Notes under the pieces: model-generated
The model's database searches: none
Told to the model about the DNA's origin: nothing
Seen by the model: only the letters and a program-made list of their open reading frames with translations
Assembly (NCBI GenBank): GCA_030605085.1
Contig: JAUWBH010000014.1
Location: forward strand, 1 to 54,040
Direction: 5' to 3'
Origin: Promethearchaeota archaeon
GTDB taxonomy: Archaea > Asgardarchaeota > Lokiarchaeia > Sigynarchaeales > SOKP01
Length of the DNA: 54,040 nucleotides
Translations under genes and position numbers: made by a program
Part shown: positions 11,369 through 35,858 of the stretch, piece by piece
How the letters are laid out: each line of letters opens with the position of its first letter
Position numbering within the stretch: the stretch's first letter is position 1

Positions 11369-11526
11369 CTTTCGTTATAGTTTTTAGTTAATAATAAGAA
11401 ATTTTTCTGCCAGCAAATAGATTTAACAATTAAAATATTTGTTTTTTTAAAATCTTTTATTTTTAACAATTTTTTTAAAATTTTAAAAAATTTAGAAATA
11501 AAAATATTTTATTAGCCCGGCACGGA

Positions 11527-11555
11527 ATTTCGAAATTCGACTTATGCCGAAATTT
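11527..11555 (-). other. BHB intron of 29 nt in the T-loop of tRNA-Gln (between positions 59 and 60)
   Basis: All parts of a canonical motif are present. The outer helix is the T-stem CACGG:CCGTG. The central 4-bp helix is UUCG:CGAA (11561-11558 with 11532-11529). The bulges are AA|A (11557-11555) and AU|U (11528-11526). The inner helix is AAUUUCG:CGAAUUU with one U-U mismatch and an 8-nt loop. Cutting after the second base of each bulge yields the standard T-loop UUCGAAU. Confidence 0.85.
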
Positions 11556-11566
11556 TTCGAACCGTG

Positions 11567-11598
11567 TTCGCGATTCGAATTATGAGGTGATTCGAATA
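11567..11598 (-). other. BHB intron of 32 nt in the variable loop of tRNA-Gln
   Basis: The central helix is CGCG:CGCG (11604-11601 with 11572-11569). The bulges are AC|U (11600-11598) and AA|C (11568-11566). The inner helix is a perfect 8-bp AUUCGAAU:AUUCGAAU with a 9-nt loop. Cutting at the standard positions leaves variable loop CGAC joined to T-stem CACGG. The outer helix is weak, as in relaxed (HBh') motifs of other non-canonical tRNA introns. Confidence 0.8.
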
Positions 11599-11726
11599 GT
11601 CGCGGGGTTCAAGGCCCCATATGCTTGGCCACTACACCACCGGGCTTCGGTTAAAAATTTAGTATTAGATCTTGTTTTAAAAATTTTTCATTTAATAAAT
11701 TTTTAATGGTTTGTAAGAAGTGAATT

Positions 11727-13507: not shown

Positions 13508-15220
13508 CTTTTTAGAAAAATTACACGAGAATTGAAAGTTCCAGAATTATCTTCAACAAGATTCCTTGAATTTCGAGTAGTTTGTTCTGAACTAATTCCA
13601 TTCTGGGCTCTTTTTCTATGGTCTTGTTCGAATCATATATCAATAGAACCAAGGCAGAAATAAAGGATATTCGATTAAAGCAAGAATTCAATAATACATT
13701 TATTGAATATATTAAGAATTTATATAATATAGATGTTAATAAAAATAACTTTCCAATTTTAAATTTAGTAAATTTAGATGAAAACAGAGAGACTCATAGA
13801 TATTGCTTTCCACAATTTATGGCGTTGACGCCATAAATTTCTAAATATCATTTAGAAACCGAATTTTTATTTAAGTTGTATAACCTTTCTAAATTTACAG
13901 AACCATTTCTTTTTTGTAAAAAACTAAAAGTTTGGGACCGATGCAGTGTACCTGTAATTCTAGACATTGCGAAAAATAGAATCCCTTTCAGAAAAAGTAG
14001 TAGTTTTACTAGTCTCAAGAATTTCATTATTAAAAACATTGAAGGCAAAGCACAGAAAATTGCTTTAGAATTATTGCATGGCTTAAAAGACAAAAGAACA
14101 AGAGAGAAAGGATATATATGGGATTTAATTTATGACGAATTGATCATTAATAATAACAAAATTATTAAACCTAATTATATTCCAAACCAGCTAGATTTTT
14201 TAATTGAAACTCCTCTCATAATTGAACAAATAACAAAGTTTACGGAAATAATTAGATTAGTGTTAGACTATGATCAGATGCTAAATAATAAAGAGATAGC
14301 TACCAAGTTAGCGCCTAAATTTGATATTACTAAAGAAGCACTTGCAATTCAGATTCAAAAAATTACATCATATCTCGATAATAAAGATTCTTTTAATAAA
14401 AGAGAACATTTTCCGCAAATTACTTTTCCAAAACTACCACCAATGATTTCAGGATTTGCCGAGAAATTGTTATTACCGAGTTTTCCTAAATTGCATTCCC
14501 ATTTATGTAATATAAATAAACTTAAGGGTTTTCCCGATCATATACTCGAGAGCTTCAAGGATCCGAACACTAATGATGGGCGAGTTTCTAATTTCAGCGG
14601 CAGACTTACAAACATTCACGAAAACAGAAAAATACAAAGATCAGTTTGTAGAAGGACTAATAAATAAAGGCATTATAAATCCTTTTTTCATGGATGAACA
14701 TCCAAATCCATCTGGATTAGACTCTTTTAGCAAGATATTATGGAATTTATGCTACTATTGCAGAAATATTCATTATAAAAAGAAAGATATTTGGGCAGGG
14801 CACGGGAGTCCTGCTCACGAAGTAGTATTGCCTAAAGTTTTTGATAATCTTGTAAATGTTATGGCAATTGAACTTCCGATTTGGAATAAGTACGGAGGTA
14901 AATATTTAACAGGGCACATAGATTCACTTCTAAAAATTGTAAACGTGATTGGTATTGGGGATTATAAGCCTAACGAAACTCCATATTTTTCAAAGAATTT
15001 TGCAAATTCTAGTTTCTTAAACTCCGTACCTCAAGTTGCTATGTATGCTTTAGAAACGAGCAATTTATTTGATATTAAAAACATTCTCTGCATCACTTAC
15101 AATAAGAAAGGAGCATGGTATTATAAACCGAAACCTGTTTTAAGGGAATTAAAACTATTTCTTGATAAGCATTTTATACCTGCTGAAAAAAGGTCTTGGG
15201 AAGATTATATTAATTTTTAA
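13508..15220 (+). pseudogene. decayed PD-(D/E)XK-superfamily nuclease gene
   Basis: Several frames together encode one protein. A first segment (about 13508-13615, with V-P-E-L-S-S-T-R-F-L-E-F) shifts frame near 13610. The second (from 13618) hits an in-frame TAA at 13834-13836 but stays in frame to about 14570. A third frame then runs to 15220. The last part holds G-H-I-D then G-D-Y-K-P-N, the Asp ... (D/E)xK core of this nuclease fold, plus C-Y-Y-C. At least two frame changes plus a stop make a functional product unlikely. The TAA sits in a perfect 11-bp hairpin (13814-13839) followed by another hairpin (13838-13858). Confidence 0.65.
13814..13858. repeat. two adjacent perfect hairpins inside the decayed nuclease gene
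   Basis: AATTTATGGCG and CGCCATAAATT are separated by TTGA (13814-13839). TTTCTAAAT and ATTTAGAAA are separated by ATC, directly after and overlapping by two bases. The first contains the in-frame TAA. No 4-bp central helix with 3-nt bulges can be drawn around it, so it does not fit the BHB intron rule seen elsewhere in this window. Confidence 0.7.
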
Positions 15221-15245: not shown

Positions 15246-17111
15246 CTATAAGAGGTAAGCCTTCAGCGTTTGGATAGACTTATCAATACTTCTATCTATT
15301 TTCCTTCTTCTTCTTAAAAAATTGTCCGTTAATTTTAAATAAGCTGCCTTTGAGGGAAGGCGCCCTCTTTTATACCGTGCTTCAAGAAGGTTTAGACTAT
15401 CATTAACACTTATTCGCTCAGCTTCCAATACCTCTAATTTACTTAAAATATTTTCGAAGGTTAGGCTAGCTTCGACAACTGCTTTTTTAAAGGGAATTAG
15501 TTCATTTTCAATTTCTTGAATTTTTACTGTATTTTTATTTAATAGGTTTTTATACTTCTTTTTTACCATTTTCTTTCTCTTTGTTAGTTCTTCTGCTTCT
15601 CTAATCTCTAATATTAGGGCATTTTTTTCTTCATATAAAGAACAAAATTGACGAAGTTCGTTTACAGGAATTAACTCTTTCAGAAGAATATCTTCTGCCA
15701 CTTCCTTTTTTGATTTAATTATTAATACATAAGCAGTTGATATTAAACCAACTAATAACATGAAAATAAAAGGCCTGAATAATAAATCAAAATAATTAAC
15801 TGTAAATGTTAAAAGAATTTCTTTTCTCTCTAACGGACTTAAATAATCAGATTCATAGACTAATATAATAGAATTTTGTGTATTTTCTATAGCATCTGGA
15901 GGATCGCTCACATAATCTATACTATAACATCCTTCGATAATTATTTTTATTGTTTGCTCTCTTCCTAAAAACTCATTGGCAGTGCCTATGACATCGATGT
16001 AAAATGATTCCTGAAACCAATTTATAGAGAAGTACTTTTCAAAAGGTAAAAAATATCGCACACTAAACCGATATTTAGAACCTGGAGTAATTTGGACTCG
16101 ATTTTCGGACAAATCAATTTTCAAATCTTTTTTTTCCACTTTAGTATAATTAATTTCAGGATCAAGCGTAATTCCTGTAATTTCACCTAAATCGTCGTAT
16201 ACATATACTTCTTTAGCAGGTCCAGGGATTTCGAACGATAACTCGTCTATATTTATTTCACCTTTGTTTTTTACTAAAAACTCGTCCGTAACTTTCAAAA
16301 TACCCCATGGAGAAATAAAAATCTCTCTATTTATTTCGATAAACTCCATTTTAGTTACATATTCTTCAGTAAAACTAATGTTAATTAACTTATTAAAAGC
16401 TAAATTTTCTAAGAAAGGATCGACTATATCACTATGGTCATATGTAATAGTGTCTCCTTTAACATCCCCCCAATCCGAATAATCAGCAAAATCTGATGTT
16501 GTTGGTATATCAAATTTCGCAATTATTTTTCCGTCTATTTCGTAAGGCAAAAGAGGAAAGACATAGTATTCAAAGCTAACAAGTTGTTCAGGATCATCTT
16601 CATCTTTTTGGTCTTCAGGGATTTCATAAGTTAACAAATTCTTGTATGTTTGTTTAAACTCAATAGTTTTTGATTGATCAGGTAATAAAGGTGAATCGAA
16701 ATAAACCGCAATCAATTCGAAATCGTCCATAACATTGTCACTGGCCTCGGTTAATAAGGTACTTTTATCCTCTCCTATTGCTTCATAGTAAACTAAATCC
16801 TCAGAATATTCTTCTGGGATTCCTATAAAAAAGGAATCAATAGAGTTATGATTATTATTTTCAACTTCAATTTCATCTTCAATATGTACTAAACCATACT
16901 CATTTAATTCTACATCTCGTTCGATCTTAGTAATTGTTATATCGTCCAATCCTTTCAAATTTGCTGAAATACTGGGATATTCAATTTTATTGCTATTTTT
17001 ATTATCATCATAAGAAACTTTTGAAGAGGAGGGTATTTTAGAAAATAAAACAATAAATAATAGAATTCCCATCAATAATAAAAAAAGCTTTTTTTTTCTT
17101 AACATATACAA
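15246..17111 (-). CDS. ribophorin-I-like (OST1/RPN1) membrane protein
   Basis: 621 residues. There is an N-terminal signal anchor (8-25), a large all-beta extracytoplasmic part built of two similar halves (residues about 55-440), one membrane helix (about 450-472) and a coiled-coil cytoplasmic tail of about 150 residues. Human ribophorin I has the same length (607), the same helix position and the same coiled tail. Details also fit: I-E-R-D-V-E-L-N-E-Y-G-L-V-H-I-E-D early, R-Y-F-L-P-F-E-K-Y-F before the second half ends, and T-F-T-V-N-Y-F before the helix. Ribophorin I is an oligosaccharyltransferase subunit, and Asgard homologues are known. With AglH in the window, a role in N-glycosylation is likely. 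Confidence 0.6.
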   Translation of the reverse strand: MYMLRKKKLFLLLMGILLFIVLFSKIPSSSKVSYDDNKNSNKIEYPSISANLKGLDDITITKIERDVELNEYGLVHIEDEIEVENNNHNSIDSFFIGIPEEYSEDLVYYEAIGEDKSTLLTEASDNVMDDFELIAVYFDSPLLPDQSKTIEFKQTYKNLLTYEIPEDQKDEDDPEQLVSFEYYVFPLLPYEIDGKIIAKFDIPTTSDFADYSDWGDVKGDTITYDHSDIVDPFLENLAFNKLINISFTEEYVTKMEFIEINREIFISPWGILKVTDEFLVKNKGEINIDELSFEIPGPAKEVYVYDDLGEITGITLDPEINYTKVEKKDLKIDLSENRVQITPGSKYRFSVRYFLPFEKYFSINWFQESFYIDVIGTANEFLGREQTIKIIIEGCYSIDYVSDPPDAIENTQNSIILVYESDYLSPLERKEILLTFTVNYFDLLFRPFIFMLLVGLISTAYVLIIKSKKEVAEDILLKELIPVNELRQFCSLYEEKNALILEIREAEELTKRKKMVKKKYKNLLNKNTVKIQEIENELIPFKKAVVEASLTFENILSKLEVLEAERISVNDSLNLLEARYKRGRLPSKAAYLKLTDNFLRRRRKIDRSIDKSIQTLKAYLL

Positions 17112-17327: not shown

Positions 17328-17582
17328 ATGTCTAAACGGTCTCGCCCATCAAGGCGGAAAAAAAGAAGGAGTGGAACTTCTCCAATGCCTCTTGGAGGCG
17401 CAGGTCTAATTTTTACAGAATAACTGCGAAAAGATTATATGCGCTTTTTCGAGGATTCTTCAATTGGCGTAAAAATAGGACCAATTAGTACGGTATTATT
17501 GTCGGCAGCTTTGATATTAACAGTAATTGTAGCACATCTGGGCTGGTTTGACATAATTTTCACACCTGGAGCAGGCGGATAA
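17328..17582 (+). CDS. secG: Sec61 beta (SecG-type) translocon subunit, interrupted by a 30-nt BHB intron
   Basis: From ATG 17328 the frame encodes a basic N-terminus and M-P-L-G-G-A-G-L, then meets TAA at 17421-17423. The same frame resumes as R-F-F-E-D-S-S-I-G-V-K-I-G-P, a membrane helix and a short tail, ending at 17582. Archaeal and eukaryotic Sec61 beta has G-x-G-L/M-x-R-F/Y-(x)-E-D exactly here, with no gap. Removing 17409-17438 gives G-A-G-L-M-R-F-F-E-D and a 74-residue protein of normal size. The S-x-G-x-K-x-G-P stretch resembles the eukaryotic version. Sec61 beta is the small tail-anchored subunit of the protein translocation channel and is encoded in nearly all archaea, so a functional gene is expected. 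Confidence 0.85.
17409..17438 (+). other. BHB intron (30 nt) in the Sec61 beta mRNA
   Basis: A complete hBHBh' motif can be drawn. Outer helix: GGCGCA (17397-17402) with UGCGCU (17440-17445). Central helix: GGUC (17403-17406) with GAUU (17433-17436). Bulges: UA|A (17407-17409) and AU|A (17437-17439). Inner helix: UUUUUACAG (17410-17418) with CUGCGAAAA (17424-17432), one A-C mismatch, loop AAUAA. Cutting after the second bulge base on each side removes 30 nt, falls between codons, deletes the TAA and joins CUA to AUG. Confidence 0.88.
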
Positions 17583-29967: not shown

Positions 29968-30471
29968 ATGGCAACTATAGATTTTAATTTTAGGAACCAA
30001 ATTCTAGGCAACGACATCGGCGGAACTTTAAGCTATTGTTATCAATGCGCAACTTGTAGTGGAGCGTGTCCAGTAGCACAAGTTACTGAGGGCAGGTATA
30101 ATCCACGCCGACTAATTTTAGATGCTTTATTGGGACTCAAAGAGAAAATTTTTGGACCTGAAAATGCGTTTAATATTTGGGGTTGTACAGTGTGCGATAC
30201 TTGCGACGAAGTTTGTCCTCAAAAGGTTGAACTTACAGAGATCTTTATAATTTTAAAAAATATGAGCATAGAAAGAGGAGAAGCTCCTGAACATTATACT
30301 GGTCAAGCATCAATGGTATTGGAGCATGGTAAAGCAATACCAATGCAACCTGCGATTGAAAGGAGACGTGAACAATTAGGATTACCTAAAATAATGGCTC
30401 CCGATGTAAATGAAGTGCAAAAGCTTTTAGCGGCAACAAAGTTATCAGAAAAACTTCCTAAGAAAGAGTAA
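29968..30471 (+). CDS. hdrC: heterodisulfide reductase subunit C-like iron-sulfur protein
   Basis: 167 residues. Two complete 4Fe-4S motifs are visible: C-Y-Q-C-A-T-C-S-G-A-C-P (about 22-33) and C-T-V-C-D-T-C-D-E-V-C-P (about 72-83). The R-Y-N-P-R-R segment between them is typical of HdrC. HdrC passes electrons between HdrB and a flavin partner. Neither HdrB nor HdrA is adjacent, so it is a stand-alone copy. TATAAACT near 29884 may be its promoter. Confidence 0.85.
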   Translation: MATIDFNFRNQILGNDIGGTLSYCYQCATCSGACPVAQVTEGRYNPRRLILDALLGLKEKIFGPENAFNIWGCTVCDTCDEVCPQKVELTEIFIILKNMSIERGEAPEHYTGQASMVLEHGKAIPMQPAIERRREQLGLPKIMAPDVNEVQKLLAATKLSEKLPKKE

Positions 30472-30596
30472 TTTTTTTCAAATTTCTTCTTATTATAATT
30501 ATTTTCGTTAGGAATTTAAAGATTTTAAAACTTAATTGTATTATACTATTTATTTCAATTTCTAAATTAGAAATTTCTTATATGAGGTAATTTAAG

Positions 30597-31364
30597 TTGA
30601 GAAAACCTATAATAGGAGGTAATTGGAAAATGAATAGGGGTTCTCCAGCAGAAGCTAAAGAAATGCTGGAAAAGCTTATTCCTTTAGTAAAAGATATCAA
30701 AAGAGTTGAGGTAGTAATTTGCGCTCCTTTTACAGCGCTTCCTATCGCATACAATACGATTAAAGATACTAATATTAAGTTAGGAGCTCAAAATATGCAT
30801 TTTGAAGAGAGAGGCGCGTTTACTGGTGAAATATCTCCAATATTTTTAAAATCTGTGGGATGTGAATATGTTCTCTTGGGACACAGCGATAGAAGAGAAA
30901 TTTTTAAAGAATCTGATGAAATAGTTAATAAAAAGCTTAAAAAAGCGCTGTCCATAGGATTAAAACCTATTGTGTGTATTGGAGAACATTTAAAAGAAAG
31001 GGAAGCGGGAAAAACAAAAGAAATTGTACAAAACCAAATGTATAACACATTTAAGGATCTTTCTAAAAAAGACTTGATTAAAACAATTATAGCGTATGAA
31101 CCAATATGGGCAATTGGTACTGGAAAAACGGCTACTCCAGAGCAGGCAGAAGAAATTCACTCTTTTATACGCGAATTTATAGCTAAAAATTACGCCCAAG
31201 AAACCGCAGATTTAATTAGAATTCAATATGGTGGATCAATTAACCCGGATAATGCTTTAGAGCTATTCAAACAAGTAAATGTAGATGGTGGTTTAGTTGG
31301 AGGTGCCTCTCTAAAGGCAGATTCGTTTTCACAAATTATAAAAGCTGCTGATATAAAGAATTAA
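30597..31364 (+). CDS. tpiA: triosephosphate isomerase, bacterial/eukaryotic type
   Basis: 255 residues from a TTG start, preceded by TATGAGGTAA. Catalytic elements: G-N-W-K-M-N, G-H-S-D-R-R, and A-Y-E-P-I-W-A-I-G-T-G-K with the loop-6 motif, then Q-Y-G-G-S-I-N-P. It interconverts DHAP and glyceraldehyde-3-phosphate. Typical archaeal TIMs are about 225 residues and lack several of these helices. This one has the full 250-residue bacterial layout with S-D-R-R, so it was probably acquired from bacteria. Confidence 0.95.
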   Translation: MRKPIIGGNWKMNRGSPAEAKEMLEKLIPLVKDIKRVEVVICAPFTALPIAYNTIKDTNIKLGAQNMHFEERGAFTGEISPIFLKSVGCEYVLLGHSDRREIFKESDEIVNKKLKKALSIGLKPIVCIGEHLKEREAGKTKEIVQNQMYNTFKDLSKKDLIKTIIAYEPIWAIGTGKTATPEQAEEIHSFIREFIAKNYAQETADLIRIQYGGSINPDNALELFKQVNVDGGLVGGASLKADSFSQIIKAADIKN

Positions 31365-31394
31365 AAGTTTCCATTTGGTATCGTTTAAAATTAT

Positions 31395-32247
31395 CTAACC
31401 AAGTACCAAATTGAATCTTGTTGTAAGTTTCAATGGAAATTCACCCAAATAAGACTGAGCATCAGCAAATAAGAGGTAAAAATACGGTTCAAACAAGCTT
31501 TCAACAGTTACTCCAATACTGCTGTTTATAATATAAACCCATACTTGATTTTTGTTATAAAAACTTTGGCGATATTTCCATTCCATAGGATCTATGCCCG
31601 GAATCTCTCCAATATTTCTTAAAATTATCTCAATATCTTTAAAAGAATATTTACCAAAAACAATAATGGGAGAAAGGTCAAAAGAGGTAATAACTATACT
31701 ATATAATCCATACTTTCCCATTTCTTCCAAAAAATTATTTGCTAAAACGCGTATTTCTGATTGATTATTTAAAACACGAGTTCTTGCGGCTGCATCTGTT
31801 AATATCTCAATAATCCCTTGTTTTTCTTTGTTATTAATCTTATCTGCTGATTCAAGAGGGATTTTTGAAGAGATAATTGTATTATATATTAAATTAATTT
31901 TTTCTCTAATAGATTTGTGGAGAAGATATGTTTCCGTTTGAGTTGTTATTAAAACTTTTCCTTTATACTTTTTTTCGTCCTCTCGTTGCCGATTGTTATC
32001 TTTAAAAGACTTAAACTCGAGTGTTTTAATTTTTTTATCCATATTTTTAGCAAATTCAAACAAAGCAGATATTAAACCTGCATTTAATTCAAAACGCGAG
32101 TTATATGAAATTTCACGAGGTTTTTTTTTTTTCAGTAAAATCAAAAAATCTCTGAAATAATTTTATTCCCTTAGGTAAATTTTTGATTTTTTTTTCATAG
32201 TAAGGAAAACCGGTGCTAGTAATAATTGAGATATTATATATAGTCAT
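31395..32247 (-). pseudogene. longin-like domain protein with a one-base frame break
   Basis: The upstream frame, from ATG 32247, encodes a longin-like first strand (M-T-I-Y-N-I-S-I-I-T-S-T-G-F-P-Y) and reads to F-D-F-T-E-K-K-K. The downstream frame carries F-E-L-N-A-G-L-I-S-A-L-F-E-F-A and continues to 31395. The switch is in an A12 run (T12 on the plus strand, 32121-32132). Removing one A gives one open frame of 283 residues. Longin-like proteins pair with Roadblock-type proteins and small GTPases. The break could be a base-calling error, slippage or real damage. Confidence 0.7.
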
Positions 32248-32395
32248 ATCGTAATTAGTTTCTTATATATAAAACATTTAAATAATTTAAGAGAATCAAT
32301 TTTAATACTATGAATATAATTTAAATAATCATATTTAAAAGAATTTTGATCAAAAAGTTAAGAGAATTCCCATTTTTCTAAAAATAAATCCTGTA

Positions 32396-32998
32396 TTAAT
32401 ATGAGACATCTACTAGCTCGTGTCCTCTAATTTTGAATTGCCGATCAAAATAAAGAAGTATAGCGTGACCAGAATGGTTATAAACAAGAGGGATATTTGT
32501 CTTTTCAGAACTTTCAATTAAAGAATTTTTTACTATAACTGGAATAGTCTTGTTGCAGCCTTTACAATTTACTAATCTTGTTTTGATTAAATTAAGATTC
32601 TCGAAATTTTTTAAAGCATTTTCAACTGTATGGGCAAAAGCATTGAAGATATCACATTGATCTCCAAAACACGACAATAATAGTGATTCGTCGTATGTTT
32701 CGAAAAATTTTTTAATTAAATACTCTAAAATTGCCTCTAACAATTGTGTTTGAATTTCTGGACTAGCTCCTATTGAAAATATATTATCTTTTTTTAAATA
32801 ATATACAAGTTTCAAATCAATTTTTAGAATAGTGTAAAAGACTCCTTCTGTGGCAGCGGCAGCATTTCTTGTCATTTTTACATCGAATATATTAGCTTTT
32901 TGAAATGATTTCGATGTCCAATTAAAAAATGAATCGTTCGACTGGTATCTACCTAGATTGAAGAAATATATATCGGTTAATAAATCAAAGTTAATCAT
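32396..32998 (-). CDS. longin-like protein with C-terminal zinc ribbon
   Basis: 200 residues. The opening M-I-N-F-D-L-L-T-D-I-Y-F-F-N-L-G and the middle part (two strands then L-L-E-A-I-L-E-Y-L-I-K-K-F-F) resemble longin-like folds. Then come C-K-G-C-N-K-T-I-P and P-L-V-Y-N-H-S-G-H-A-I-L-L-Y-F-D. The Cys pair plus His pair probably binds zinc. It is the neighbour of another longin-like gene on the same strand, which supports a shared GTPase-regulation context. No enzymatic site seen. Confidence 0.5.
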   Translation of the reverse strand: MINFDLLTDIYFFNLGRYQSNDSFFNWTSKSFQKANIFDVKMTRNAAAATEGVFYTILKIDLKLVYYLKKDNIFSIGASPEIQTQLLEAILEYLIKKFFETYDESLLLSCFGDQCDIFNAFAHTVENALKNFENLNLIKTRLVNCKGCNKTIPVIVKNSLIESSEKTNIPLVYNHSGHAILLYFDRQFKIRGHELVDVSY

Positions 32999-33065
32999 AA
33001 TGAAATCTCAACTCAATTAATATTAATAATGAATTGCGTAATAATTTTTAGTATAAAAAAAATTA

Positions 33066-35858
33066 TTATAAAATTATTATAGCAGGCCTTCCTGGAAGTG
33101 CATGACTCGCTTTTGCCTCTTTTGAATTTTTTTCAAGTTGTATTTCAATAGTACACCTGTATTTTTTCTCTAAAATAGGTTTTATGTCCGAGAAGAATTC
33201 GAATTCTTGATTCGTAGATAACGAGAATTTAGGATATTTTCCTACATTTTTTAAGATGTTTCCAATGGTTTGATTAATGATCTTACCATGTTCTTTCAGA
33301 TCCTTTTCTTGCATAACCTTCTTCATTATTTCTCCTTGATTTTTCGTTTTTTCTACTAATGACATAACAATTTTATAAAATTTGAATTTCCAATCGTCAG
33401 CAACAACGATTTCAATTTTGTCTATTTTCTCCTTTACTTTTTTCCTTATTAAAGCAATATTATTGATATCATCCATTATATTATTCATAAATTTCCATTT
33501 AAAATTAGATTCCTCAGTAAGTATTTTCCCATCAAATTTAGGCCACGAGGCGAGGCTGACATAACCTTTTTTGCTCATTATCTCCCAAATTTCTTCTGTA
33601 ATATGGGGTGCAATTGGATGAAGTAATAAAGTCAATTTATCCCTACATTCTTCAAAGATTTCTTTATTTGCACCTTCAAGCTTGTACTTATTTAATTCTG
33701 AAGAAAATTGTACAATATCGTTTACCGCGTTTCTAATTGCGATTTTATTAAGATTTTCAGTTACATTTTTAATCGTTTTATTTAAAATATAGGTAATTAT
33801 AGTATCCCTAACTGTTTTTTCTTTCCGAAAAGTAGGGGGGGGTTCTGCTAAAAGTTGAAATGTATTTTTCATAAACTTATTCGCAAAGCCAACTCCCTCA
33901 TCTGACCACTCCAAACCTGAAGATGGACTTGCTCCAAACAGAATGAAAAATCTAGCTGCGTCTGCTCCATACTTATCCATAATTTCATTTGGATCAACAG
34001 TATTACCATAACTTTTGCTCATCTTCACGCTTTTCAACTTATATTCTGTACCACATAGTTTACACATTTTGTCTTGCATCTCTGCTTTCATTGCAAATCT
34101 ATCACATTTTGGACAATAAGGATGTGCCTTATTGATCATCCCTTGAGTTAATAATCTCTGAAAAGGTTCGTCAAATTTTTGTAATCCTAAGTCCCGGGCT
34201 ACTTTTGTGAAAAATCTAGCATATATTAGATGCATTACGGCATGTTCTATTCCACCAATATATTGATCAACATTTCCCCAATAATTTACGATAGCCTTAT
34301 TATAGGGTACATCATTTTCAACCGAAGGGGGATCGCAGAAAGCAAAGAAATACCAAGAACTATCAATAAATGTATCCATTGTATCAGTCTCTCGTCTTCC
34401 CTGTTTATCGCACTTAGGACATTTAGCGTTTAAAAAACTCTTGCTTGTTTCTAAAGGGTTACCAGAACCAGTAAATTTAACATCCTTAGGTAAAAATACT
34501 GGCAGATCCTCATAAGGCACTGGTACTGTTCCACAATCTTCGCAATAAATAATTGGTATAGGACAACCCCAATAACGTTGGCGAGAGATACCCCAATCTC
34601 TCAATTTATAATTTATTGTTTCGTATCCAAATCCAATTTTATCTAATTTTTCTGTGATTGCATTTATTGCATTTCGATTCTCCATTCCGTTAAATTCCTC
34701 AGAATTTATTAGTATTCCATCTCCTTCATAAGCACGAGTCATCTTTTCAACATTTAACTCATAATCATGAGGCTGTATTACGATTTTAATAGATACACCG
34801 TATTTTTTTGCGAATTCAAAATCTCTTTGGTCATGAGCTGGAACCGCCATGACTGCACCCGCACCATACTCGTATATAACGAAGTTCGAGATATATACGG
34901 GGATCTCCTCTTTGATTATAGAATTTACGCAATACTTTCCAATAAACATCCCTTTCTTTTCAATTTCAATATCAGTTCTTTCGAATTTGTTCTCTTTCAT
35001 AACTTCGTTGTAAAGTTTTTCAAATTCCTCCTCGTATTCTGTGCCTGTAACCCATTCACGAACCCATGGATGCTCAGGGGCGAATATCATAAATGTTACA
35101 CCATAGAGAGTGTCAGGTCTTGTTGTAAAAATATCTATCGTTCTATCTTCTCCAACTATAGGAAATTTAATAATAGAACCCTCAGACTTAGAGATCCAGT
35201 TTCGCTGCATGATTTTCACTTTTTCCGGCCAATCTACCGTATTCAGACCATCCAAAAGCTCATCTGCATATTCTTTGATCTTTAAAAACCACTGTGTTAA
35301 GTATTTTTGTTCTACATCGTTATTACATCGCCAGCATTTCCCTCCTTGCGCTTGTTCATTTGCAAGGACAGTTACACATTTTGGATACCAGTTTACATAA
35401 CTCTCTTGCCTATAAGCTAGTCCTTTTTCATACATCTTAAGGAAGAACCATTGATCCCATTTATAATAATTAGGGTTGTGACTGAATAGTTCTCGAGTCC
35501 AATCATATGAAAGACCAATACGTTTTTGCTGATTTTTCATCGTATTTATATTTTTATCAGTCCATTCTTCAGGATTAGCACCATGATCAATCGCAGCGTT
35601 TTCAGCGGGCATACCAAAGCTATCATAGCCTGTCGGGTAAAGAATATTAAAGCCGTTCATACGTTTAAATCTCGCGTAACAATCACCAATAGTATAATTT
35701 CGAAGATGACCCATATGAAGCTTTCCAGAAGGATAAGGGTACATTTCCAGCACGTAATATTTCTTTTTCTTTGGATCTTTCTTTACCTCAAATATTTTAT
35801 CCTTTTCCCATCGTTCTTGCCATTTCTTTTCAATTGTTTGAGGATCGTAATCTATCAT
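33066..35858 (-). CDS. leuS: leucyl-tRNA synthetase, bacterial type
   Basis: 930 residues. Class I signatures: H-M-G-H-L-R-N-Y near residue 48 and K-M-S-K-S about two thirds along. The editing domain has T-T-R-P-D-T-L-Y-G and M-A-V-P-A-H-D-Q-R-D-F, and a zinc knuckle follows C-W-R-C. The start Y-D-P-Q-T-I-E-K-K-W, the M-P-A-E-N-A-A segment and the position of the editing insert match bacterial LeuRS, not the archaeal/eukaryotic one. It charges tRNA-Leu. As an essential enzyme of bacterial type in an archaeal setting, it is likely acquired. Confidence 0.92.
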   Translation of the reverse strand: MIDYDPQTIEKKWQERWEKDKIFEVKKDPKKKKYYVLEMYPYPSGKLHMGHLRNYTIGDCYARFKRMNGFNILYPTGYDSFGMPAENAAIDHGANPEEWTDKNINTMKNQQKRIGLSYDWTRELFSHNPNYYKWDQWFFLKMYEKGLAYRQESYVNWYPKCVTVLANEQAQGGKCWRCNNDVEQKYLTQWFLKIKEYADELLDGLNTVDWPEKVKIMQRNWISKSEGSIIKFPIVGEDRTIDIFTTRPDTLYGVTFMIFAPEHPWVREWVTGTEYEEEFEKLYNEVMKENKFERTDIEIEKKGMFIGKYCVNSIIKEEIPVYISNFVIYEYGAGAVMAVPAHDQRDFEFAKKYGVSIKIVIQPHDYELNVEKMTRAYEGDGILINSEEFNGMENRNAINAITEKLDKIGFGYETINYKLRDWGISRQRYWGCPIPIIYCEDCGTVPVPYEDLPVFLPKDVKFTGSGNPLETSKSFLNAKCPKCDKQGRRETDTMDTFIDSSWYFFAFCDPPSVENDVPYNKAIVNYWGNVDQYIGGIEHAVMHLIYARFFTKVARDLGLQKFDEPFQRLLTQGMINKAHPYCPKCDRFAMKAEMQDKMCKLCGTEYKLKSVKMSKSYGNTVDPNEIMDKYGADAARFFILFGASPSSGLEWSDEGVGFANKFMKNTFQLLAEPPPTFRKEKTVRDTIITYILNKTIKNVTENLNKIAIRNAVNDIVQFSSELNKYKLEGANKEIFEECRDKLTLLLHPIAPHITEEIWEIMSKKGYVSLASWPKFDGKILTEESNFKWKFMNNIMDDINNIALIRKKVKEKIDKIEIVVADDWKFKFYKIVMSLVEKTKNQGEIMKKVMQEKDLKEHGKIINQTIGNILKNVGKYPKFSLSTNQEFEFFSDIKPILEKKYRCTIEIQLEKNSKEAKASHALPGRPAIIIL

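Follow-up and report, generated by a model that had tools for sequence, protein, structure and literature searches.

A split Sec61 beta gene with a predicted bulge-helix-bulge intron

The window, the whole stretch of 54,040 nt that was analysed, carries on its + strand a Sec61 beta gene whose reading frame starts at 17328, runs through MSKRSRPSRRKKRRSGTSPMPLGGAGL and then IFTE, and meets a TAA at 17421-17423. It opens again at 17439 (MRFFEDSSIG), and the gene closes at 17582. An earlier note on this DNA had described a Sec61 beta gene broken by an in-frame TAA, and this is borne out both by direct reading of the frame and by a Pfam Sec61_beta match after splicing. The parts of the gene and of its predicted fold are as follows.

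17328-17582, + strand: split Sec61 beta gene, from direct reading of the sequence
17328..17408, + strand: exon 1, 27 codons, MSKRSRP...GGAGL, from sequence reading and alignment
17409..17438, + strand: candidate bulge-helix-bulge (BHB) intron, 30 nt, phase 0, matched by same-site 32-nt insertions in the related loci L046 and L057
17439..17582, + strand: exon 2, MRFFED...GAGG, stop codon included, from sequence reading and Pfam
17396..17402, + strand: outer helix, 5' arm, in exon 1
17403..17406, + strand: central helix, 5' arm GGUC, in exon 1
17407..17409, + strand: 5' bulge UAA, proposed cut 17408/17409 by the rule given in the part of PMC2738675 available to us
17410..17432, + strand: inner stem, 17410-17418 with 17424-17432, and loop AAUAA at 17419-17423, containing the in-frame TAA 17421-17423
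17433..17436, + strand: central helix, 3' arm GAUU, in the intron
17437..17439, + strand: 3' bulge AUA, proposed cut 17438/17439 by the same rule from PMC2738675
17440..17446, + strand: outer helix, 3' arm, in exon 2

The outer helix has seven pairs, one of them G.U. The central helix GGUC:GAUU has four, and we count it as a weak point that two of these are G.U. The nine-position inner stem includes a mismatch (A17415.C17427) and a wobble (U17414.G17428). These elements, together with the two opposite 3-nt bulges and the AAUAA loop, confirm the 30-nt structure that had been proposed; the stop codon had been placed across the loop and the inner helix, which is wrong, as the TAA lies wholly within the loop. 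Cutting between the second and third base of both bulges removes 17409-17438 exactly between codons and restores GAGLMRFFED, as predicted. In an alignment of the spliced protein with 23 relatives (selected among 120 listed, of 412 found) the junction is free of gaps, and GAGLMRFF (G24 to F31) is invariant. The spliced protein computed from the sequence has 74 aa and scores 42.4 bits against Pfam Sec61_beta; exon 2 by itself scores 33.9 bits, and exon 1 by itself gives no Sec61_beta score.

Strict BHB motifs (outer helix of at least 6 bp, inner helix of at least 5 bp, intron of 16-60 nt) numbered 10 on the two strands of the window; 40 dinucleotide-shuffled versions had 5.2 on average. Motifs with at least four G-C pairs among six outer pairs numbered one in the window, that of Sec61 beta, and were absent from all 40 shuffles. 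The fold energy is a further weak point: at -13.7 kcal/mol the BHB is 1.3 kcal/mol less stable than the best fold of the same 58 nt (-15.0), in which the central helix is open; the corresponding differences are 2.3 kcal/mol for L046 and 1.3 kcal/mol for L057. Fold z-scores of the region were -2.47 (63 nt) and -3.24 (66 nt). A group I or group II intron was rejected, as no Rfam family reached its gathering score in the window; introns of either group are also much longer than 30 nt. Similarly, a cbf5 intron was rejected because the interrupted gene is Sec61 beta by Pfam.

Insertions at the same site in related genomes

A scan of genome contigs for Sec61 beta, in which 80 of 157 loci were kept, identified two loci that match only from residue 28, the first past the junction: L046 (SDNY01000019.1, in genome G001) and L057 (JAHPZI010000030.1, in genome G002). 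A third locus, L050, matches from residue 27, yet its frame is unbroken. Both L046 and L057 carry, at the identical site, a 32-nt insertion that contains a TAA. Its inner stem and loop are altered, but the two bulges and the central and outer helices are retained. Such insertions, of different length at one site, support the suggestion in the earlier note that this mRNA would be a substrate of the tRNA splicing endonuclease; its description of the host as Asgard-like was right, because the relatives are Lokiarchaeota/Promethearchaeota.

Comparison of relatives with and without the insertion, which had also been proposed, was extended to the whole order. Sec61 beta matches were obtained in 74 of 79 order genomes, 72 of them with an open frame of at least 69 aa and G001 and G002 with one of 48 aa, so that L046 and L057 are split and 72 of the 74 matching genomes are unbroken. 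Eight rows of this listing show a stop inside the match and were inspected in part. G001 and G002 each have a single Sec61 beta match, the split copy, and the objection that a second, intact Sec61 beta might exist elsewhere in the genome fails for these two. Across the phylum 213 of 227 genomes match; among the matches listed, a short frame in G166 was rejected as a split gene, since it lies at a contig end. Viral contigs were scanned for relatives of the split gene, and none was confirmed there.

Taken as they stand, the sequences make it very probable that the Sec61 beta pre-mRNA contains an intron, 17409-17438, spliced by EndA with ligation of the exons, and that the gene encodes an ordinary Sec61 beta. 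The transcript would fold into the bulge-helix-bulge, the tRNA-splicing endonuclease EndA would cut each 3-nt bulge between its second and third base, and an RNA ligase, most likely RtcB, would join the exons, so that the spliced mRNA would encode ordinary Sec61 beta. We infer the cutting, the ligation and the translation of the spliced mRNA alike.

Recurrent interruption of rpl11

Genome G002 (2.47 of its roughly 3.2 Mb) was scanned for BHB motifs that leave one continuous coding frame when excised; the gene for uL11 (rpl11) was among the 10 best-structured candidates, with 30 nt containing a TAA within GPPIGPVV^GPTGIN. The L11 N-terminal domain was matched in 68 of 79 order genomes, 40 of them within a single open frame and with the match starting no later than profile position 4, and 28 broken or shortened. 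G054 was excluded as a split gene, since its rpl11 is cut off by the end of the contig close to site II (see below). The gene is interrupted in 27 of the 68 matching genomes, and the DNA was inspected for all 27 (20 regions, six regions, and G002 from its pieces). The loci are L316 (G001), G002:C30 126508-126807 and L317-L341.

Four insertion sites were distinguished: I after GGS, II after PPI, '27' in G001 and G002, and III after GIN. Hand-written sequence rules, made with the sequences already seen, placed 34 insertions in 25 genomes (12 at site I, 5 at site II, 2 at '27' and 15 at site III), and in G048 and G055 a site II insertion was assigned by eye. Three insertions are present in G036 and two each in G057, G043, G032, G053, G056, G068 and G062. 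Spliced uL11 of G036 and G002, the two tested, matched both L11 domains above the cut-offs. An automatic splice finder gave wrong or no junctions in G036, G053, G057 (partly), G064, G003, G038, G043 and G005, and one spurious extra junction in G063.

The insertions are 28-37 nt long; of the 34 placed by rule, 27 have a length that is not divisible by 3. These lengths bear on ribosomal read-through or bypass of the TAA, in which the insertion would be translated or skipped and the RNA left uncut. The 30 nt of the window are a multiple of 3, and recoding of the stop codons UGA and UAG exists in Asgard archaea according to the available part of PMC9723677, but the stop in question is a TAA, which is absent from the codons named in that part. 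Moreover, the 32-nt insertions of L046 and L057 shift the frame, so neither stop read-through nor TAA as a sense codon can explain them; most rpl11 insertions likewise break the frame, and two or three bypasses would be needed in some rpl11 genes. We give this explanation almost no credence.

All four central-helix pairs form at 33 of 37 cuts (rpl11 and the three Sec61 beta genes together), a figure measured at cuts chosen in knowledge of the protein and the motif, because the rpl11 rules were set after the sequences had been seen. When both cuts were slid by 1-9 nt, four of four pairs formed in 11 of 666 cases, and when only the 3' cut was slid, in 16 of 666. By site, the full central helix is found in 12 of 12 insertions at site I, 2 of 2 at '27', 15 of 15 at site III and 3 of 3 in Sec61 beta; site II is weak, with 1 of 5. 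Outer helices are poor at sites I and III. The rpl11 BHB lies 4.7 kcal/mol above the minimum fold in G002 and 0.1 kcal/mol above it in G001. Among the 15 site III sequences (14 distinct), both partners have changed in 5 of 14 pairs, every one of these in the inner stem, a count that none of 500 shuffles reached; the number of further pair types did not go beyond the shuffles (208 of 500).

Across the phylum uL11 was matched in 207 of 227 genomes, and among the matches listed none outside the Loki order has a broken frame. As a control, cbf5 was matched in 75 of 78 order genomes (G002 being without a match), and among the matches listed none has a stop inside it. The insertions in rpl11 of the Loki order, G001 and G002 included, are added support for the proposed splicing of Sec61 beta, and their pattern makes the predicted Sec61 beta intron more than an isolated case.

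Selection on the split gene and alternative explanations

Both arms of the Sec61 beta outer helix are exon sequence. All seven pairs form in the three split genes (3/3), compared with none of 45 distinct intronless junctions, where 26 have four pairs, 9 have three, 3 have five and 7 have six. The last five codons of exon 1, which lie inside the motif, are identical in the window, L046 and L057. By plain counts, the first 44 codons of exon 2 show 16-18 silent differences between the window and L046/L057 vs 9-10 residue changes, and the last 24 codons of exon 1 show 7 silent differences vs 4-5 residue changes. Covariation among the three introns is limited to one pair (A-U to U.G), which is not beyond shuffles (183 of 500).

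An assembly error or a pseudogene might be suspected, in that all three Sec61 beta genes come from metagenome assemblies and an in-frame stop is the usual sign of a dead gene. However, three records carry different inserts at one site, and an rpl11 insertion is also present in G040, by its coordinates the single-chromosome record CP070831.1, the two lengths stated for it being 100 bases apart. The excess of silent differences in both exons, the presence of the split gene as the only copy found in G001 and G002, and the listed cbf5 matches of the same order, none with an internal stop, likewise speak against decay, and we consider either explanation extremely unlikely.

A protein search with exon 2 returned 63 clusters, including the window's own 47-aa piece. 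Six clusters of 48 aa, P0124, P0126, P0127, P0130, P0131 and P0134, begin at MRFFED, and 10 other shortened clusters that were inspected start further up, at the MP preceding GAGL or SGAGL. The six are probably further carriers of the intron, judging from their sequence, although a gene caller picking that ATG in an intact gene could also produce them. The full-length proteins P0017 and P0025 share 87-90% identity with L046 and L057 Sec61 beta after splicing, so that either intronless close kin or spliced transcripts are represented in the databases.

These short proteins are also what translational restart would yield, with exon 1 as a decaying remnant and synthesis starting at the ATG of exon 2 to give a 47-48-aa Sec61 beta that keeps its membrane helix. 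Exon 2 opens with ATG in 3/3 split genes and still scores as Sec61_beta by itself, and both exon 2 of the window and the six similar clusters are entered in the protein database as proteins of 47-48 aa. In contrast, the conserved basic N-terminus and PMPLGGAGL are still encoded by exon 1 in all three genes, and the perfect outer helix is confined to the split genes. Restart in rpl11 past sites I-III would lose the conserved N-terminal domain, yet insertions recur there. Restart is thus very unlikely, and splicing remains our preferred reading of the Sec61 beta gene.

Head to head with Sec61 beta, the window encodes on the - strand (15246-17111) a 621-aa protein with a Ribophorin_I match (PF04597, E 1.1e-18), a relative of a eukaryotic oligosaccharyltransferase subunit; a ribophorin match is present at 47 of 51 Asgard Sec61 beta loci searched. 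In a tree of this ribophorin-like neighbour (48 rows), the intronless L028 is the sister of L046 plus L057 (99/95) and the window stands apart from them, so the intron label needs at least two changes. As the intron sequences of the window, L046 and L057 are alike, we think that one gain followed by loss is likelier than two gains. The ribophorin proteins of the window and L046 have 57% of residues in common, and the predicted intron is therefore not very recent.

Splicing machinery and tRNA genes

EndA (PF01974) was found in all five genomes tested, with two copies each in G001 and G002, and RtcB (PF01139) in four of the five, that of G002 not being found. One EndA paralogue of G001, G002, G003 and G005 has in place a tyrosine, a histidine and a lysine, which we take to be the EndA active site. 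The best solved-structure match of G002 EndA is 3p1z (E 4e-36); in the alignment, chain 3ajv has an alanine at the histidine position. In G003 and G004 the other paralogue was read as well; it is without that histidine and looks like a structural subunit. The occurrence of histidine-bearing and histidine-less paralogues indicates that the enzyme is probably of the two-subunit type, a type that the available part of PMC2738675 links to cbf5 introns.

G001 and G002 have seven tRNA genes with lengths of 101-107 nt, from which tRNA introns of 25-30 nt may be expected in these genomes. A tRNA search of the window with ARAGORN returned none; by eye, 11514-11646 on the - strand reads as a tRNA with anticodon TTG (Gln) and two insertions outside the anticodon position. 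In G002:C22, 26 tRNA matches lie within 3 kb on both strands (30303-33334), the tRNAs of G002 being scattered elsewhere, and this cluster is perhaps of viral or foreign origin.

Scans for further split genes

A first BHB scan of 1.01 Mb of loci plus the window gave 41 frame-restoring candidates, including the three Sec61 beta genes. A second scan, combining BHB and frame restoration, returned 1022 candidates; it covered the window, 40 kb of G001 and 2.47 Mb of G002. Among its 10 best-structured, three are the window Sec61 beta, the G002 Sec61 beta and the G002 rpl11; the other seven were judged by eye to be chance, one of them recurring in G001 and G002. Looser criteria gave 47 candidates, of which the others were judged by eye to be neighbouring genes or chance. 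By design, introns with irregular BHBs would escape these scans.

Additionally, split matches were sought by tblastn with 1349 ORFs (90 aa or longer) taken from the window and 180 loci, against 2.47 Mb of G002 and the same loci. This gave 68 groups; L287 and L302 aside, those read as real are Sec61 beta and rpl11. The ORFs of families L016_859, L025_976 and L024_961 proved, in the examples inspected, to lie in tRNA genes or in intergenic DNA; a split match in L108 is a run of N. Elsewhere in the window, the overlapping + strand ORFs 13876-14667 and 14573-15220 (together 13876-15220) resemble one frame-changed gene; neither has a Pfam match, and no DNA match to 12.45-15.28 kb was found in the L046 and L057 loci.

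Relation to known introns

The introns in cbf5 of Crenarchaeota, as described in the part of PMC2738675 available to us, are of 16-44 bp with mostly unconventional BHBs, are predicted to be cut after the second of the bulge residues and before the third, and were shown by cDNA to be spliced. The candidate Sec61 beta introns resemble them in being short (30-32 nt), in interrupting a single protein gene, in following the same cut rule with restoration of the frame, and in their patchy gain and loss among relatives. They differ in gene and phylum and in having a canonical 3-4-3 BHB; moreover, splicing of cbf5 is known from cDNA, whereas that of Sec61 beta is proposed here from DNA sequence alone. 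With archaeal tRNA introns they share the BHB, a similar size and the same proposed enzyme. Unlike in tRNA genes, the product would be an mRNA and the outer helix is built of codons.

Two other cases are comparable. In the HVO_1309 mRNA of Haloferax, the splicing endonuclease cleaves BHB sites in the 5' untranslated region (PMC7714728, from the part available); this is likewise an mRNA with BHB sites, but Sec61 beta is interrupted in its coding sequence. Putative 12-bp introns of an archaeal virus, whose splicing is unproven (cited in the available part of PMC2738675), are also short insertions in protein genes proposed as introns; they keep the frame, while two of the three Sec61 beta insertions do not.

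In the accessible text of PMC7714728, a 2020 paper, the cbf5 mRNA is given as the only reported additional archaeal BHB intron, and in the literature searched cbf5 is the one established archaeal BHB intron in a coding sequence. Reports of introns in Sec61 beta or uL11 were not found in the open-access literature, preprints and subscription papers aside, and the word 'intron' is absent from the available part of PMC10833476, which concerns Asgard ribosomal gene clusters and names bin108. A wetland dataset containing Asgard RNA, PRJNA1247515, is mentioned in PMC12918454.

We consider it likely that Lokiarchaeia routinely use the tRNA endonuclease for protein-catalysed splicing of pre-mRNAs, that more than one essential gene (Sec61 beta and uL11) is involved, and that the introns occupy several independent positions, with as many as three in one mRNA. 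If true, this would be multi-gene mRNA splicing in the archaeal phylum closest to eukaryotes, where it may be more frequent than has been realised. Two further genes, another phylum, several independent sites and multi-intron genes would make a system of what was a curiosity; intron gain and loss, dependence on the type of EndA, and regulation of secretion and ribosome genes by splicing would then become testable. Gene calling in Asgard genomes would, moreover, be truncating real proteins, as with the Sec61 beta of the window, which is listed as its 47-aa exon 2.
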